Origin: Cyanobacteria bacterium M_surface_10_m1_298
GTDB lineage: Bacteria > Cyanobacteriota > Cyanobacteriia > PCC-6307 > Cyanobiaceae
Direction of reading: 5' to 3'
Length of the DNA: 64,000 nucleotides
Assembly: GCA_016882485.1 (NCBI GenBank)
Contig: VGPT01000003.1
Span: forward strand, 1 to 64,000
Within the stretch, counting starts at the first letter, position 1, and every line of letters starts with the position of its first letter. Shown here piece by piece: positions 28,375 to 35,540 of this stretch. The notes below the pieces were generated by a model. It did no database searches. It had not been told where the DNA came from and saw only the letters and a list, made by a program, of their open reading frames with translations. A program made the position numbers and the translations under genes.

Positions 28375-29388
28375 TCAGCGCGACGCCAGAGCCCAGCACA
28401 ACAGCGTGCTGTAGCCGGCGATGCTCGCTAACTGGAGCACATTTTCCAGCCGATCAATCTGACGTCCAACCTGTTGCGGGAGCGCATCACCCGATCGGCT
28501 GATCAAGTTGGCGCACCAGATGAACTCGCAGAAAAACACCAGAGTGACCAAGTACGAGAAGGCGTAGAGCCCATCGATCTCCGTGAGATAAGGCAGTGAT
28601 GGCAGGGACTCGCGATAGGCCTGTTGCATGAACACCAGCGTCAGCAGGATGACCGGCGGAATGGCAAGACGTTCTGAGCTGAAGCTGCTGCGCAGATTCG
28701 AGCTCAGCAGCATGACTGACATGGTGATGGCCAGAGGTAAAAGCCATTTCACCAGCGCCGACCAGACAATCGGCCGGTAGATCAGCTCCATTTCCAGACC
28801 GGAAGCGGTGCTGAATAGGCGCCACTGGAGAAGTCTGTAGCCATTCATGTTGCTTCGGGTGCTGACGCCAGAGTGCTTGGCATCGGGGCGGAGAACGATG
28901 CTCGGCGGCGGCGTTAGCTCGGCCTGAACACTGGGACTGGGCTGGAGTGTGAGTTGGAGTGGGAGTGGATCGAACGGGTAGCCGCGAAAGTCAATTTCGT
29001 CGGAATAAAAGGTGCCATGAAAGCGGTAGCTCCGCTCCAGACGCGGGCCATGGCGGATCGGGCTGCGGATCGCTTCGAGCTGGGCATCCCATGGTGTGAC
29101 CTGGTTCTGAAACCGAATCAAGCTGACTGGATCGATGCCGGCTTCAAGCCAAGTCCGCATTACGGGTTCTGGGGCTGACAGGTGCAGGATCCCTTCGATG
29201 TTGTAGGTCTTGCTCTGAGAGGAGAAGCCGTAGACGTTGTCCACATTGAGAGCAACCTCTACCGGCACCGCTGGAGCCGATGGGTTGGAAGCCTCTGCTG
29301 GCCATCCCACCAGCAATGCAGTGCTGAGGACGAGGCAGAGAAGAAGCCGCTGCACTGCCTGAAGCCAGCGCCTCGATCCCATCTCCAT
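28375..29388 (-). CDS. Pentameric ligand-gated ion channel-like membrane protein
   Basis: Signal peptide, beta-rich extracellular domain with YPFDPLPLQLTL, then four TMs; M1 has LLPLAITMSVMLLSS and M2-M3 link reads ESLPSLPYLTEIDGLY. Confidence 0.8.
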   Translation of the reverse strand: MEMGSRRWLQAVQRLLLCLVLSTALLVGWPAEASNPSAPAVPVEVALNVDNVYGFSSQSKTYNIEGILHLSAPEPVMRTWLEAGIDPVSLIRFQNQVTPWDAQLEAIRSPIRHGPRLERSYRFHGTFYSDEIDFRGYPFDPLPLQLTLQPSPSVQAELTPPPSIVLRPDAKHSGVSTRSNMNGYRLLQWRLFSTASGLEMELIYRPIVWSALVKWLLPLAITMSVMLLSSNLRSSFSSERLAIPPVILLTLVFMQQAYRESLPSLPYLTEIDGLYAFSYLVTLVFFCEFIWCANLISRSGDALPQQVGRQIDRLENVLQLASIAGYSTLLCWALASR

Positions 29389-29425
29389 GGAAGTGGTGCA
29401 GGATGAGCCCAAACCTAGAGGCGGT

Positions 29426-30685
29426 ATGTCGATTGAGGTGCTGGTGATCGGGGCAGGCCCCGCTGCCCTCTGCCTTGCCGCTGCCCTGGCTGAGCGTGGT
29501 GTTCAGGTTCAGGGTCTTGCACCCGATGATCCCGCTGCGCTCTGGCCCAACACCTATGGCATTTGGGGCCCAGAGGTGGATGACCTTGGTTTGGGGCATT
29601 TGCTGGGCCATCGCTGGAGTGACACCCGCAGCTACTTCGGTGATGGCCTCAGCACGGCCGCCGTTACCCATGGCATCGACTACGGCCTTTTCGACAAAAC
29701 AGCGCTGCAGCAGCACTGGTGGCGTATCTGCCAGGCGGCTGGGGTGACCTGGGAGCGAGGTCGGGCAGACGCCATCGAGCACAACGCCGATGGCTCCATC
29801 GTGATCACTGAGGCAGGCGAGCGCCTTCAGGCTCGCTTGGTGATCGATGCCAGCGGTCATCACTCTCGCTTTGTTAAGCGCCCCGATGAGGGCCCTGTGG
29901 CGGGTCAGGCGGCCTATGGCATCGTTGGCCGTTTTTCAGCACCGCCGGTGGACCCGGGCCAATTCGTGCTGATGGATTACCGCAGTGATCACCTCAGCGA
30001 GGCCGAACGGCGCTGTGGACCAGCCACCTTCCTTTACGCCATGGATTTCGGCGAAGGGGTGTTTTTTGTGGAAGAGACCTCCCTCGCCCTCGCCCCAGCG
30101 GTGCCCTATGAGGTGCTCAAAGATCGATTGTTGCGCCGCTTGCACCATCGCGGCATTGAGGTTGAAACGATTGAACATGAGGAGTTGTGCCTGTTTCCGA
30201 TGAACCTTCCTCTGCCAGATTTGCAGCAGAGAGTTGTGGCGTTTGGTGGATCCGCCTCCATGGTTCATCCCGCCTCCGGCTACATGGTGGGTGGCCTGTT
30301 GCGCCGTGCTCCTGCATTGGCTGCAGCGGTCGCACGCGGTTTGCAGATGCAAGCCATGGATGGAGAGCAGTTATCGCGTCTCGCCTGGGATTCCCTTTGG
30401 CCTCTTGAGCTGCAGCGCAAACGTGCTCTCTACTGCTTTGGATTGGAGAAGTTGATGCGCTTTTCTGAGCCTCAACTTCGTGCTCACTTCACGACCTTTT
30501 TTAGCCTCCCGCAACCGGATTGGTATGGCTTTCTCACCAATACCCTCACGCTCTCTGAATTGGTGATGGCCATGGTGCGTTTGTTTGTGCAAGCCCCCTG
30601 GGCTGTGAAATTCGGTTTGATGGGCATGCAGGGCCGCGAGCTCCAGCTCGGGCTGAGGTTGGTGTGGCCTGGGGCTGGCCGATAG
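29426..30685 (+). CDS. crtL: Lycopene cyclase (CrtL type)
   Basis: VLVIGAGPAALCLAAALAERGVQV; WPNTYGIWGPEVDDLGL; plant/cyanobacterial lycopene cyclase architecture. Confidence 0.92.
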   Translation: MSIEVLVIGAGPAALCLAAALAERGVQVQGLAPDDPAALWPNTYGIWGPEVDDLGLGHLLGHRWSDTRSYFGDGLSTAAVTHGIDYGLFDKTALQQHWWRICQAAGVTWERGRADAIEHNADGSIVITEAGERLQARLVIDASGHHSRFVKRPDEGPVAGQAAYGIVGRFSAPPVDPGQFVLMDYRSDHLSEAERRCGPATFLYAMDFGEGVFFVEETSLALAPAVPYEVLKDRLLRRLHHRGIEVETIEHEELCLFPMNLPLPDLQQRVVAFGGSASMVHPASGYMVGGLLRRAPALAAAVARGLQMQAMDGEQLSRLAWDSLWPLELQRKRALYCFGLEKLMRFSEPQLRAHFTTFFSLPQPDWYGFLTNTLTLSELVMAMVRLFVQAPWAVKFGLMGMQGRELQLGLRLVWPGAGR

Positions 30686-30697
30686 AGGCCAATGCTC

Positions 30698-32848
30698 TCA
30701 ACCTTGCCGTTGCGGGCTGCGCATTTCGATCCAGTAGCGTTCAAGCGCGTCCAGCGCTCCACTGGAGCGAGTGCGCGCCAGCCATGTGTTGAGATACAGC
30801 AGTAGTGAAGAGTCATTCCCTCCGACGAGGATCACCATCTGCCCCGCTAGATCGCCTCGGAATGGAGTAATCAAGGTTGTCTGCGGATAAAGCACCGACC
30901 AGGCGGCGCCTCCCTCAGCTGTGGTGAGTAGGGCATCAACCTGTTTGAAGCCATCCTCAGCAAAGAAGCGACGTTTGTCGCTGATGGGCTCTAACACCAA
31001 CGGAGCTGGTTTTCCCGGTGCCCCCAAACGCTCGGCGAGTTGTTCCTGCAGCAGACGGTTGATCAGTTGCGGGTCGCTAACAGCAATGCGCAGCGGCCGT
31101 GCCAGAGGCTTTCCCGGCAAGGTCTGGATCATTGACACCTTTTGATCAGGCACCACCAGGGCGAGATGCACGGTTTGGTAGCCGTTGCTCACTTGATGAC
31201 GAGCTGCCCGCACTGGACTGTCTTGGATTCCTCCAACGGCCAGGTCGATCTCCTGCCGATCCAACAGGAGCTCCAATGCGCTGAAGCTAGCGGGATGAAG
31301 GCTGACGCGTACCCCAAGGCTCTCCGCCAGTTCTTCCATCAGATCCACATCCAGACCAATCCAGCGGCCGCTGCGATTGCGGTAGGCCCAGGGCAGTCCG
31401 TCGCTGCGGATTCCCACCCTCAGTACGCCCCGTTGACGAATCGCCGCCAGCGTCACCGCCTGGGACGTGCCTTCGCTCTCCACGTTTTGGATAGAGCGGC
31501 TCCAAAGGGGTTGACGGGTCAACACCACATCGTCGTTGCTGTAGCGCCCAGCTAACGATTGGCTCAGCAGATGCCGGCTCCCCTGCCCCAGCGACAGAGA
31601 GGCAGCTGCCGTCAGGCCCGCGGTCGCCACGATGCGCAGGGGACGGATTCTTAGACAGTGGCTGCTGGCGCAGAAGCTGCCGACCGCCAGCACGATCAAG
31701 CCCTCGAGGGTGAGAACTTTTTCAAACCGGTAGAGCCACTCGCCGCTGAGGTGCACCAGTTGCAGGAGGTCTAGAGGCAGCCCTGCCTGAAGCAGGCCCG
31801 CACGGGCTGCAGTTTTGATCCCCCCCACCACAGTCGGGATTCCAGTGCCGAGTAACCCCGCTACCGCGGTGGTGCTCAGAGGTTGTCCAACAAACCAAGC
31901 AGCAAAGGGCAAAAAACTGAGGGCCATGATTTGGCCAAGGCCCGGTAAGGCAAAGCCCACCGACAGGCTGGGCACCAGTTCATCAAAGGCCTCCTGAGGA
32001 GCATCTGGGCACGCCGCCGCCAGCTCTTCGCGCAGATTGGAGGCGAGCACAGGAAGGGTGATCAAGACATTGGCACTGCTGGCCGTCAGGGCCAGAGGGC
32101 CACGGCAGATACGCCACAGCTGCCGTGCATTCAAGGGGGTGCAGCTGAGGATCAGGCCGGCCAGAGCAATGGTCATGGCCAACAGACCGACGAGTCCCAT
32201 CAGGAAGAAGCCCTGAACGCGGATCAATTGCTCCAGCTGAAAGCTGGCCGCATTGCGTGCACTCAGCGCAAGGATTCCCAGTGGAATGATGCGTGCCACC
32301 AGTCGGTTCAGACGACTGAACAACGTGCGAAGAACACTGAGAGGCTCCAGCAGCTGTCTGCGTTCTGGCAATTGCTGCAGCAGAACTCCGCAGATCCCAC
32401 TGAACAGAACAACTGCTGGAAAGTTGTCCGCGGCAAGAGCTGAAAAAATATTGTCTGGGATGTAGGTGTTGATCAGGTTGACCGGTTCAACGGGTTGGAG
32501 AAGATCCCGGCTAAAGAAGGCTGAGTAGACAACAGGTGGCAAGACGCCAGGCATCATCACGACCGCCAGGCATCCCAGCAGCCAGAGGCCGCTGAGAAGG
32601 GCGAGTCCACTGCGCAGAAGGATGCGTAAGCCTCGTTCTTCGAGGCTCCCCAAGGCGACAACCAGCTCGCAGATGATGAAGGGCATCACCACGATCTGAG
32701 AGGTTTGGAGAAAGATCGCTCCGAGGGGTTGAAGAATCTGGGTGAATCCGGGTGCCAGCCGACCGATCAGGCATCCGAGCACGAGTGCAGCTAGGCATTG
32801 ATTCCCCAGGTGCTGCAGGCCTGCCCGCTGGATCAGCCGCCAGACCAT
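30698..32848 (-). CDS. Fusion: N-terminal SDF/DAACS symporter-like domain plus C-terminal family 3 solute-binding domain
   Basis: N-terminal about 400 aa multi-TM with LTASSANVLITLPVL (SDF SSxxTLP-like); C-terminal RGVLRVGIRSDGLPWAYRNRSGRWIGLDVDLMEELAESLGVRV is a classic SBP_bac_3 start. Confidence 0.88.
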   Translation of the reverse strand: MVWRLIQRAGLQHLGNQCLAALVLGCLIGRLAPGFTQILQPLGAIFLQTSQIVVMPFIICELVVALGSLEERGLRILLRSGLALLSGLWLLGCLAVVMMPGVLPPVVYSAFFSRDLLQPVEPVNLINTYIPDNIFSALAADNFPAVVLFSGICGVLLQQLPERRQLLEPLSVLRTLFSRLNRLVARIIPLGILALSARNAASFQLEQLIRVQGFFLMGLVGLLAMTIALAGLILSCTPLNARQLWRICRGPLALTASSANVLITLPVLASNLREELAAACPDAPQEAFDELVPSLSVGFALPGLGQIMALSFLPFAAWFVGQPLSTTAVAGLLGTGIPTVVGGIKTAARAGLLQAGLPLDLLQLVHLSGEWLYRFEKVLTLEGLIVLAVGSFCASSHCLRIRPLRIVATAGLTAAASLSLGQGSRHLLSQSLAGRYSNDDVVLTRQPLWSRSIQNVESEGTSQAVTLAAIRQRGVLRVGIRSDGLPWAYRNRSGRWIGLDVDLMEELAESLGVRVSLHPASFSALELLLDRQEIDLAVGGIQDSPVRAARHQVSNGYQTVHLALVVPDQKVSMIQTLPGKPLARPLRIAVSDPQLINRLLQEQLAERLGAPGKPAPLVLEPISDKRRFFAEDGFKQVDALLTTAEGGAAWSVLYPQTTLITPFRGDLAGQMVILVGGNDSSLLLYLNTWLARTRSSGALDALERYWIEMRSPQRQG

Positions 32849-33918
32849 TAGGCCGTCGCTCCAGCGCAGGAGCTGCCCTGGCCAGCGGTGCAGCCGAAAC
32901 AGTGATTGCCCCAGTGAATGGCTCGCCCCTGGAGCTGTTCGCGAGTGATTGTCTCAATCGTGGGAGGTGTCTTCTGCACTGATGCCTCCTCCAGAGAGTC
33001 ATGCCCTAAAGGCAGAGCCAGCATCTGGTTGAAGTCGCAGTCATAAAGGGATCCATCGGCCGCAACTGAGAGGGTGTCCCGGCACATCAGCCCGCTGAGG
33101 GCCGCTGGGTTGAAGGCTCCCTGCAGCAACTTGAGGTAGCAATTCACGTGTCCATCACGCTGCAGCTGCTCAAGGAATCGGGCGATCGGCATGTTGTTGA
33201 GGCCGATCAGTCGATCGAAGCGCACCCCGGCCTGCTCCATCAAGCGTGTTTTCCAGGCCTGCTCATCGCAGGGCGTGAGCTGTTGCAGCCGGGTGCCGGC
33301 GGGGTTGCTCATCAAGGTCAGCTGCCGCTGGGGATCACCATGGCCGTAGCCCAGCTGGTTGAGCCGCTGCAGCGCTTGGATCGAAGCGTCCCAGGTGCCA
33401 GTGCCGCGCTGGGCATCGGTGCTCCCGGCTTCTGGTTGGGGCAGGCTCGCGACGATTTCCACCTGCTGCTCGGCCAGGAAACCCGTCAGATCCGCCAGCG
33501 GTGGCAGCAGCAGCACGGTGAGGTTGCAGCGATCGATCACATGGCAGCCCTGCTGTCGTGCCGCGATCACCAGATCGCGGAACCGGTGGTGCAGCTCCGG
33601 AGCACCGCCGGTGAGATCCACGACCTCGGGTTGCAACCGTTCGATCGCTGCGATGCAGGCCTCCACCACCCGATCGCTCATCTGGCTGTGGCCCTGATGG
33701 GGGCCCGCATCCACATGGCAGTGGGAGCACTGCATGTTGCAGAGCTTGCCCAGGTTGAGTTGCAACACACGCAACGCGCTGCGTCGCGGTGGCACCAGGC
33801 CGGCGGCAGTGAGGCTGGCGCTGAACGCATGCTCGTCGCCAAGGGCGGCGTTCAGGAGTTGTTGCTGCGCTGCGGGCTCCAGCAGGGGGGAGCGGGGATC
33901 GGCGGCGCTCAGGCTCAT
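32848..33918 (-). CDS. arsS: Arsenosugar biosynthesis radical SAM protein ArsS
   Basis: Radical SAM motif CNMQCSHCHVDAGP; LTGGAPELHHRFRDLV; C-terminal HCFGCTAGQGSSC Cys-rich segment. Confidence 0.92.
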   Translation of the reverse strand: MSLSAADPRSPLLEPAAQQQLLNAALGDEHAFSASLTAAGLVPPRRSALRVLQLNLGKLCNMQCSHCHVDAGPHQGHSQMSDRVVEACIAAIERLQPEVVDLTGGAPELHHRFRDLVIAARQQGCHVIDRCNLTVLLLPPLADLTGFLAEQQVEIVASLPQPEAGSTDAQRGTGTWDASIQALQRLNQLGYGHGDPQRQLTLMSNPAGTRLQQLTPCDEQAWKTRLMEQAGVRFDRLIGLNNMPIARFLEQLQRDGHVNCYLKLLQGAFNPAALSGLMCRDTLSVAADGSLYDCDFNQMLALPLGHDSLEEASVQKTPPTIETITREQLQGRAIHWGNHCFGCTAGQGSSCAGATA

Positions 33919-35540
33919 CTCTGGCTGGAGGAGGCGGGGATCGCTGCTGGCATCCGGGCCCAATCCGCCGCGTTGATCCGAGGGAAGAGACCATCTTCTC
34001 GCTGCACCTCCTCAAGCCAGTCGGCCGGTAGGGGTTCCTGCTGGTTGATGGCCTCGAGCAGTGTCCAGAAACGCTCGAGATGGCGATGGATGCGTTCCTT
34101 GGCCAGTTCGGTGGTGGTGCCGGCCCGCAGGATGAAGCTCCAGTCCGAGCTCTGCGCCAGCAGCAGCTCGCGGCCCGCCTGATTCAGCAAGGTCCGATCC
34201 TGTTCACTGCCCACACCTCGGCTGACCCGTTCAACCATGGCCCTGGAGGCCCGATTCCACTCGGGGATCACCCAGGAATTGCTGTCGTTTAACCAATAGG
34301 TGTGGTAACCGCCCTGTCCCCAGCTCGAGGGGGAGGGTTGGCAGAGCTGCAGGGCATCGCCGCGGCTGAGGGTGTCCCGCAGGGTGGCGAGCCCCACCCC
34401 TTGCTGAGGTGCCTGACGGAACAACTCCGCCAGGAACTGCGGCCCCTCATACCACCAGTGTCCGAATAGTTCCGCATCAAACGGTGCCACCAGCAGAGGG
34501 CGGCGCTGCATCGATCCGCTCAGCTCCTCCAGTTGCTGAGCGCGGCCCTGGAGGTAGTGCAATACATCGCGATGGATTGCTTCGGAAGCGGCTGCAGGGT
34601 CGTAGGGCTGTTTCTCCTCAAGGCTGCTCTGCCTGCCGCTGACCCTGTGGAGCTTGAGGCCCAGGGGCCGGGCGCAACCAATCCCCTTCCGTTCCAGCTC
34701 GGCTGCTGGCAGATCCCAGCCCAGATCCCGATGAAATTCTCGGTAGCGGGCATCGCCGGGATAGCCATCGCGGGCGCTCCACACCGGCAGGGTGGCTTCG
34801 CTATCGCGGGCGAAGAAGGCCATCCCCCCCGGGCTGCAGATGGGGGCATAAACCCCATAGCGGGGTCTTGGCTGGCCGTGCAGCAAGCCGTGGGCATCAA
34901 GGATGGCGTAGCGCAACCCGCAGGCCACCAGCTGGCGATCGAGCCCTTCGTAGTAGGCGCATTCCGGCAGCCAGATGCCCTGGGGGCGCACCCCGAGCAG
35001 GCGTTCATGCTCCCGAACCGCCGTGAGCAACTGCGCGCGCACCGCCTCCGGGCAGTCCCGCAGCAGGGGCAGGTAGCCGTGGGTGGCTGCGCAGGTCAGC
35101 AGATCGAGAACCCCGCGCTGCTGCAGGGCCTGGAAGCGGGGCAGCAGATTGCCCTCGCAGCGTTGCCAGGCCTTGAGGGCCCCGCCCAGTTGCTGGGCCA
35201 GGTCAGCGGCAGCGGCCTCGTAACCCTTGGGAGCCTGCTGCAGCAGAGACTGCCGCACTTTCAGCCAGGGAATGAAGCGCCGGCTGAGCTCCGCGTTGCT
35301 CAGGAGCGAGAGCAGGGTGGGCGAGAGCCCCATGCTCAGACGCGGCCTTTGGCTGGGATCGGCCGCGGCGGCCTCCAGCACATCCAGGAGTGGCAGATAG
35401 CACTCCAGCAGGGCCTGGAAATACCAGTCTTCTTCCAGCGAGCCGGGCGCACTGGAGTGCACGTACGGCAGATGGGCGTGCAGAACGAGCGCTAGGTCAC
35501 CCGAGGGCAGGGTTCCAGAGGCCAGATCTCCCGCGGCCAA
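33915..35540 (-). CDS. GH57 family glycoside hydrolase (1,4-alpha-glucan branching enzyme-like)
   Basis: LALVLHAHLPYVHS; IWLPECAYYEGLDRQL; LLVAPFDAELFGHWWYEGPQFL. Confidence 0.92.
   Translation of the reverse strand: MAAGDLASGTLPSGDLALVLHAHLPYVHSSAPGSLEEDWYFQALLECYLPLLDVLEAAAADPSQRPRLSMGLSPTLLSLLSNAELSRRFIPWLKVRQSLLQQAPKGYEAAAADLAQQLGGALKAWQRCEGNLLPRFQALQQRGVLDLLTCAATHGYLPLLRDCPEAVRAQLLTAVREHERLLGVRPQGIWLPECAYYEGLDRQLVACGLRYAILDAHGLLHGQPRPRYGVYAPICSPGGMAFFARDSEATLPVWSARDGYPGDARYREFHRDLGWDLPAAELERKGIGCARPLGLKLHRVSGRQSSLEEKQPYDPAAASEAIHRDVLHYLQGRAQQLEELSGSMQRRPLLVAPFDAELFGHWWYEGPQFLAELFRQAPQQGVGLATLRDTLSRGDALQLCQPSPSSWGQGGYHTYWLNDSNSWVIPEWNRASRAMVERVSRGVGSEQDRTLLNQAGRELLLAQSSDWSFILRAGTTTELAKERIHRHLERFWTLLEAINQQEPLPADWLEEVQREDGLFPRINAADWARMPAAIPASSSQR

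Follow-up and report, generated by a model that had tools for sequence, protein, structure and literature searches.

Gene and domain organization

The window, which is the whole 64,000-nucleotide stretch of DNA analysed here, carries at 30698..32848 on the minus strand a single open reading frame that starts with ATG and encodes a protein of 716 residues. Pfam matches and full-length homologous fusions show that this protein joins an SDF domain, a linker helix (TM9) and an SBP_bac_3 domain that is predicted to be periplasmic. The sequence-only reading had described one in-frame polypeptide made of these two domains, and the profile search bears this out. The N-terminal part is an SDF domain (PF00375, residues 16–364, 31757..32803, minus strand), with an E value of 5.6e-32 and a score of 111.7 bits against a curated cut-off of 27.9, and the C-terminal part is an SBP_bac_3 domain (PF00497, residues 476–708, 30725..31423, minus strand), with an E value of 3.2e-20 and 72.7 bits against a cut-off of 26.4. 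The fusion protein is the only SDF match in the source genome, which its relatives mark as that of a picocyanobacterium. A ParB_C match in the same protein scores below its cut-off and was set aside as chance.

The stop codon of an arsS-like radical SAM gene overlaps the start codon of the fusion gene by 1 bp (TAATG) at position 32848. A functional link between the two genes was rejected, since this arrangement is absent in relatives, where the gene often lies in the opposite orientation. Within positions 29387–35540 of the window, the fusion gene is inverted with respect to its counterparts at loci L006, L011, L013 and L122, which occupy the same place beside a lycopene cyclase gene with a GH57 gene nearby. 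At L004 and L014 it is found at a different nearby place.

Overall fold and topology

The AlphaFold model of residues 1–446 (pLDDT 71.7, pTM 0.72) contains the helices TM1–TM8 and both hairpins, followed by TM9 at residues 403–432. The full-length model has a pLDDT of 68, and confidence across the models is moderate (68–72); at this level, a GltPh-like fold with HP1 and HP2 is present. Foldseek searches with the SDF model return GltTk, ASCT2, EAAT and the uncoupled ancestral carrier AncInt, with an E value of 1e-8 and TMt values of 0.72–0.73. The full-length model also matches family-3 SBPs, and the nearest solved structures for this part are cyclohexadienyl dehydratases and the ancestral binding protein AncCDT-1.

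TM9 (31553..31642, minus strand) is preceded by an Arg-rich loop. The K+R fraction of this TM8–TM9 loop is 0.23 among the 27 fused members, compared with 0.13 for the segment after TM9. By the positive-inside rule, the loop would lie in the cytosol, which would place the SBP on the periplasmic side of the membrane.

Comparison of the transport site with standalone SDF carriers

The protein shares with GltPh, GltTk and the SLC1 carriers (DAACS/SDF, PF00375) the eight-TM, two-hairpin fold seen in the model, the scaffold residues and the Pfam score. It differs from them in having lost the Na+/aspartate motifs of TM7, HP1 and TM8, in a shorter HP2 tip, and in the addition of TM9 and the SBP. We counted motif residues in 27 fused members and 18 standalone SDFs using GltPh numbering. 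As far as TM7, the same register is obtained from profile–profile and from multiple alignment.

First, the break in TM7 (residues 302–306, 31931..31945, minus strand) reads P302-G303-L304-G305-Q306 in place of N310-M311-D312-G313-T314 of GltPh, so the replacement of NMDGT noticed in the sequence-only reading holds in register. The consensus of the fused members is P-x-x-G-[QRKT]. The Asn310 position is proline in all 27, compared with Asn, Asp or Ser in all 18 standalone proteins; the Asp312 position is non-acidic in every fused member (Leu, Met, Ile, Thr or Gly), and the Thr314 position is Gln, Arg or Lys in 25 and Thr in the other two.

The HP1 hairpin spans residues 241–279 (32012..32128, minus strand), with model helices at 241–258 and 261–279. 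The string SSANVLITLP had been read as a retained HP1 serine motif. This was a register error, as Ser257 and Ser258 lie two positions away from the functional register. When the sequences are aligned on the conserved LP, A259, N260 and V261 fall at the positions of R276, S277 and S278 of GltPh, so that the protein lacks the serine motif of HP1. The Ser278 position is non-serine in 27 of 27 fused members (hydrophobic or small, and nearly always hydrophobic), whereas it is serine in all 18 standalone SDFs.

TM8 (residues 369–395, GEWLYRFEKVL..., 31664..31744, minus strand) lacks the canonical D...D..RT..N, and the pattern D...D..R[TS]..N occurs in none of the 27 fused members but in all 18 standalone proteins. 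Lastly, HP2 (residues 326–355, 31784..31873, minus strand) is at least 5–6 residues shorter than in standalone SDFs: 37 residues separate the anchored columns in every fused member, compared with 42–47 in the standalone set.

The NMD(GT) motif of TM7 is described as the point where Na+ binding and substrate binding meet (PMC5110648 and PMC12668577). In the latter, the Na+-coupling signature is given as N310, M/S311 and D/E312, and the H+-coupling signature as L311 with N405 and a hydrophobic residue at 92. The Na+ signature in this form is absent from all 27 fused members, in which 310 is proline and 312 is non-acidic. By the criteria of these two sources, the protein is therefore not a classical Na+-coupled SDF symporter. 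Position 311 is never Leu in the fused members; positions 92 and 405 of the H+ signature are not safely alignable.

A Na+- or H+-coupled SDF symporter in disguise, for which the SBP merely raises affinity, would agree with the Pfam score well above the cut-off and with the retained overall fold. However, the changes at 310, 312 and 278 in 27 of 27 members, the missing TM8 motif and the shortened HP2 all speak against it, and residues of the N310/D312 type partly define Na+ coupling in PMC12668577. We regard this possibility as quite improbable. The suggestion that the protein is either a binding-protein-assisted symporter or a sensor with a changed substrate thus stands as a fair pair of hypotheses, built on a fusion and an altered site that are real and conserved, but the word symporter is not supported in its SDF sense, with the Na+ signature of TM7 absent and Leu never found at 311.

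Distribution and evolution of the fusion

We surveyed Cyanobacteriota and Pseudomonadota for the fusion. Relatives with 41–53% identity to the window protein have the same architecture, and their alignment runs across the junction without a stop. Full fusions are found in 35 of the 330 Cyanobiaceae genomes searched, with no stop at the junction in most of them and a few frameshifted copies; for high-quality genomes of the family, the count is 29 of 207, in 11 of 59 genera. Outside this family, among 386 cyanobacterial genomes, SDFs and SBPs occur only as separate proteins. A second clade, presumably marine judging by the type of genome, shares about 27% identity with the window protein. One Cyanobiaceae genome (G1102) has two distant copies (C1:447246-449348 and C1:2715422-2717488), which are perhaps a further subfamily.

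Full-length homologues with 25% identity are also present on replicons of Pseudoalteromonas xiamenensis and Halioglobus pacificus, and these matches rule out an invention specific to cyanobacteria. The fusion occurs in 5 of 399 Pseudomonadota genomes; for one order of this phylum the count is 21 of 296, and several of these genomes contain two or three paralogues. The joined protein is thus shared by picocyanobacteria and marine gammaproteobacteria.

These data also bear on the concern that an assembly or sequencing error has joined two genes, or that the gene is decaying. Broken copies in some relatives (L011, L013, G007, G1164 and G1183) would fit such an explanation, but dozens of intact in-frame fusions exist in two phyla, single-contig genomes included, and the junction is free of stops in the aligned relatives, in most of the 35 Cyanobiaceae and in Pseudomonadota. 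Two separate genes joined by error are thus ruled out by the intact homologues. Decay is contradicted by low dN/dS values: these are 0.04–0.16 for the SDF part in close pairs, so the membrane domain is maintained and is not a relic, and in marine pairs they are equal to or stricter than those of the SBP. Taken together, an artefact or a dying gene has a negligible probability. Broken copies were recorded at L014/L021 (HJ21-Hayes), G017:C429, L011, L013, G1164 and G1183; some are probably real pseudogenes and others are perhaps assembly frameshifts.

The two domains have diverged together. The SDF tree separates the 27 fused members from 18 standalone SDFs with an SH-aLRT support of 100, and the SBP tree separates them from 28 standalone SBPs with a support of 93, in trees whose root is not settled as the standalone sample is mostly cyanobacterial. 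Pairwise SDF and SBP distances are correlated with a Mantel r of 0.88, and none of 2000 permutations gave a value as high. The simplest reading of these trees and distances would be a single ancient fusion inherited as a unit. The fusion, with its altered transport site, is conserved and older than the source genome.

Ligand-binding site and gene neighbours

Arg547 (31208..31210, minus strand) occupies the position of the ligand-carboxylate arginine of amino-acid SBPs, a role that we take over from LAO/GlnH-type SBPs. It is kept in nearly all members of the freshwater clade and is variable in the others. The Asp position for the ligand amino group is mostly Ser or Thr in the freshwater clade, and the pocket residues (equivalents of Arg77 and Asp161) are not uniform over the fusion family. 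A carboxylate ligand, which need not be an α-amino acid, is plausible from these residues.

No neighbour is common to all clades at the loci examined, and none of the neighbours is informative for the cyanobacterial protein. In proteobacteria, a BshA-family glycosyltransferase, which uses L-malate, is encoded directly upstream on the same strand at seven loci (L110, L157, L158, L161, L165, L166 and L169); the L110 protein scores 448 bits to TIGR03999. PanP, an aspartate decarboxylase, follows the fusion after a gap of 2 bp at one locus, and a PanE-like reductase follows 1 bp downstream at three (L112, L153 and L154). All of these enzymes act on small acids. PanP or PanE-like genes are directly downstream at four proteobacterial loci but never at the cyanobacterial loci examined, and a link to pantothenate is a lead only. 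At L112 and L153, the PanE-like gene is followed by one for a large regulator-like protein (nSTAND1/Trans_reg_C at L153, a CadC-like N-terminus at L112). One paralogue group (L111, L114, L115 and L172) is followed immediately by RcsF-like and TrmO genes, which was set aside as housekeeping gene order.

The protein could also be a transporter-derived receptor (transceptor), in which the SBP would sense a ligand and a non-transporting SDF scaffold would signal its state to a partner in the cytoplasm. The tested Na+ and substrate motifs are lost in every fused member, yet purifying selection on the membrane domain is strong. SBP_bac_3 domains are common as sensor inputs, and GGDEF or GGDEF–EAL proteins adjoin the fusion at five proteobacterial loci (L163, L167, L168, L170 and L171). 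However, at three of these five loci the genes are convergent with the fusion, and only four genomes are represented. Pfam finds SDF and SBP domains only and no cytoplasmic output domain, and no conserved signalling or regulator partner appears among the neighbours at the loci examined, with none at all in cyanobacteria. The lack of both features would favour a carrier over a receptor, which we consider possible but doubtful.

Proposed mechanism and comparison with known systems

The best explanation, to which we give about an even chance, is an SBP-tethered elevator carrier without Na+ coupling of the SDF type. Counted in its favour are the two domains scoring above their cut-offs, the fold match, the co-divergence of the domains, the purifying selection and the adjoining small-acid enzymes. 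Counted against it are a substrate site changed to such a degree that the membrane domain may move no solute, gene neighbours that differ from clade to clade, the unevenness of the SBP pocket residues and the moderate confidence of the models. The C-terminal SBP would be held in the periplasm by TM9 and is predicted to capture a small organic acid or an amino-acid-like ligand. It would then hand the ligand to the SDF-fold domain, probably a trimer like GltPh, which would carry it inward. Since the Na+ and aspartate sites of the SDF are gone, substrate recognition would be taken over largely by the SBP. Coupling may be absent, giving facilitated uptake pulled by metabolism, or may use another ion or residue.

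A different use of the same parts would be a ligand-gated conductance, in which the SBP gates an anion or cation pathway at the interface of scaffold and transport domains. SLC1 transporters are known to conduct anions in their own right, and the positive or polar residue fixed at the Thr314 position (Gln, Arg or Lys in 25 of 27) would suit such a pathway. A parallel exists in GluR0, the ligand-gated K+ channel of Synechocystis, which likewise combines SBP_bac_3 with a membrane domain in one cyanobacterial polypeptide, although its SBP is split around the pore domain and its membrane part is a K+ channel. SBP_bac_3-gated channels are already present in cyanobacteria (PMC2950845 and PMC13099474). 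Against this, the sequence offers no pore motif by which to judge it, and we consider a conductance unlikely.

For the SBP-tethered carrier, the closest analogues are other elevator carriers with binding proteins. Until 2025, TRAP and TT were the only secondary carriers for which use of an SBP was known; TAXI-GltS fusions then showed that elevator carriers recruit SBPs (PMC12344293, 2025). TAXI-GltS likewise pairs an SBP with an elevator-type secondary carrier, and single-polypeptide versions exist; it differs in its GltS membrane family, in the N-terminal TAXI SBP and in being a Na+/glutamate carrier. TRAP systems (DctP or TAXI type) are also elevator carriers that depend on an SBP, and many transport organic acids, but they have a DASS-like membrane fold, the SBP is usually a separate protein, and the DctP type depends on Na+. 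In the present family, as in the TRAP, TT and TAXI-GltS systems, an SBP is joined to an elevator-fold carrier, here physically, in one polypeptide with an SDF fold. AncInt and the uncoupled SDF clade are likewise SDF proteins and work without ion coupling (PMC12668577). Genes of the uncoupled SDF relatives also adjoin those of metabolic enzymes; however, AncInt keeps the Na+-binding residues, and no SBP is mentioned in the available portion of that paper.

The domain pair IPR001638 and IPR001991 appears in the legend of figure 6 of a 2010 survey (PMC2950845), in one domain network of SBP-containing prokaryotic proteins, and it is possibly this family. The accessible text of that paper lists the pair without description, alignment or function. 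The fusion is otherwise undescribed in the open-licence literature searched, as far as its available text goes, and a subscription paper or TCDB entry could exist. The family has the look of a class of carriers linked to a binding protein that has drawn little notice. Whether it is the elevator mechanism that permits the use of an SBP could be tested with further classes (PMC12344293). Among elevators, the SDF family is one of the best understood, and a conserved SDF–SBP fusion without the ion-coupling motif offers a natural test both of that idea and of how coupling is lost. The family also includes proteins now labelled as cation:dicarboxylase symporters that probably do not fit the label; the Pseudoalteromonas xiamenensis homologue, for example, is annotated as a 'cation:dicarboxylase symporter family transporter'.
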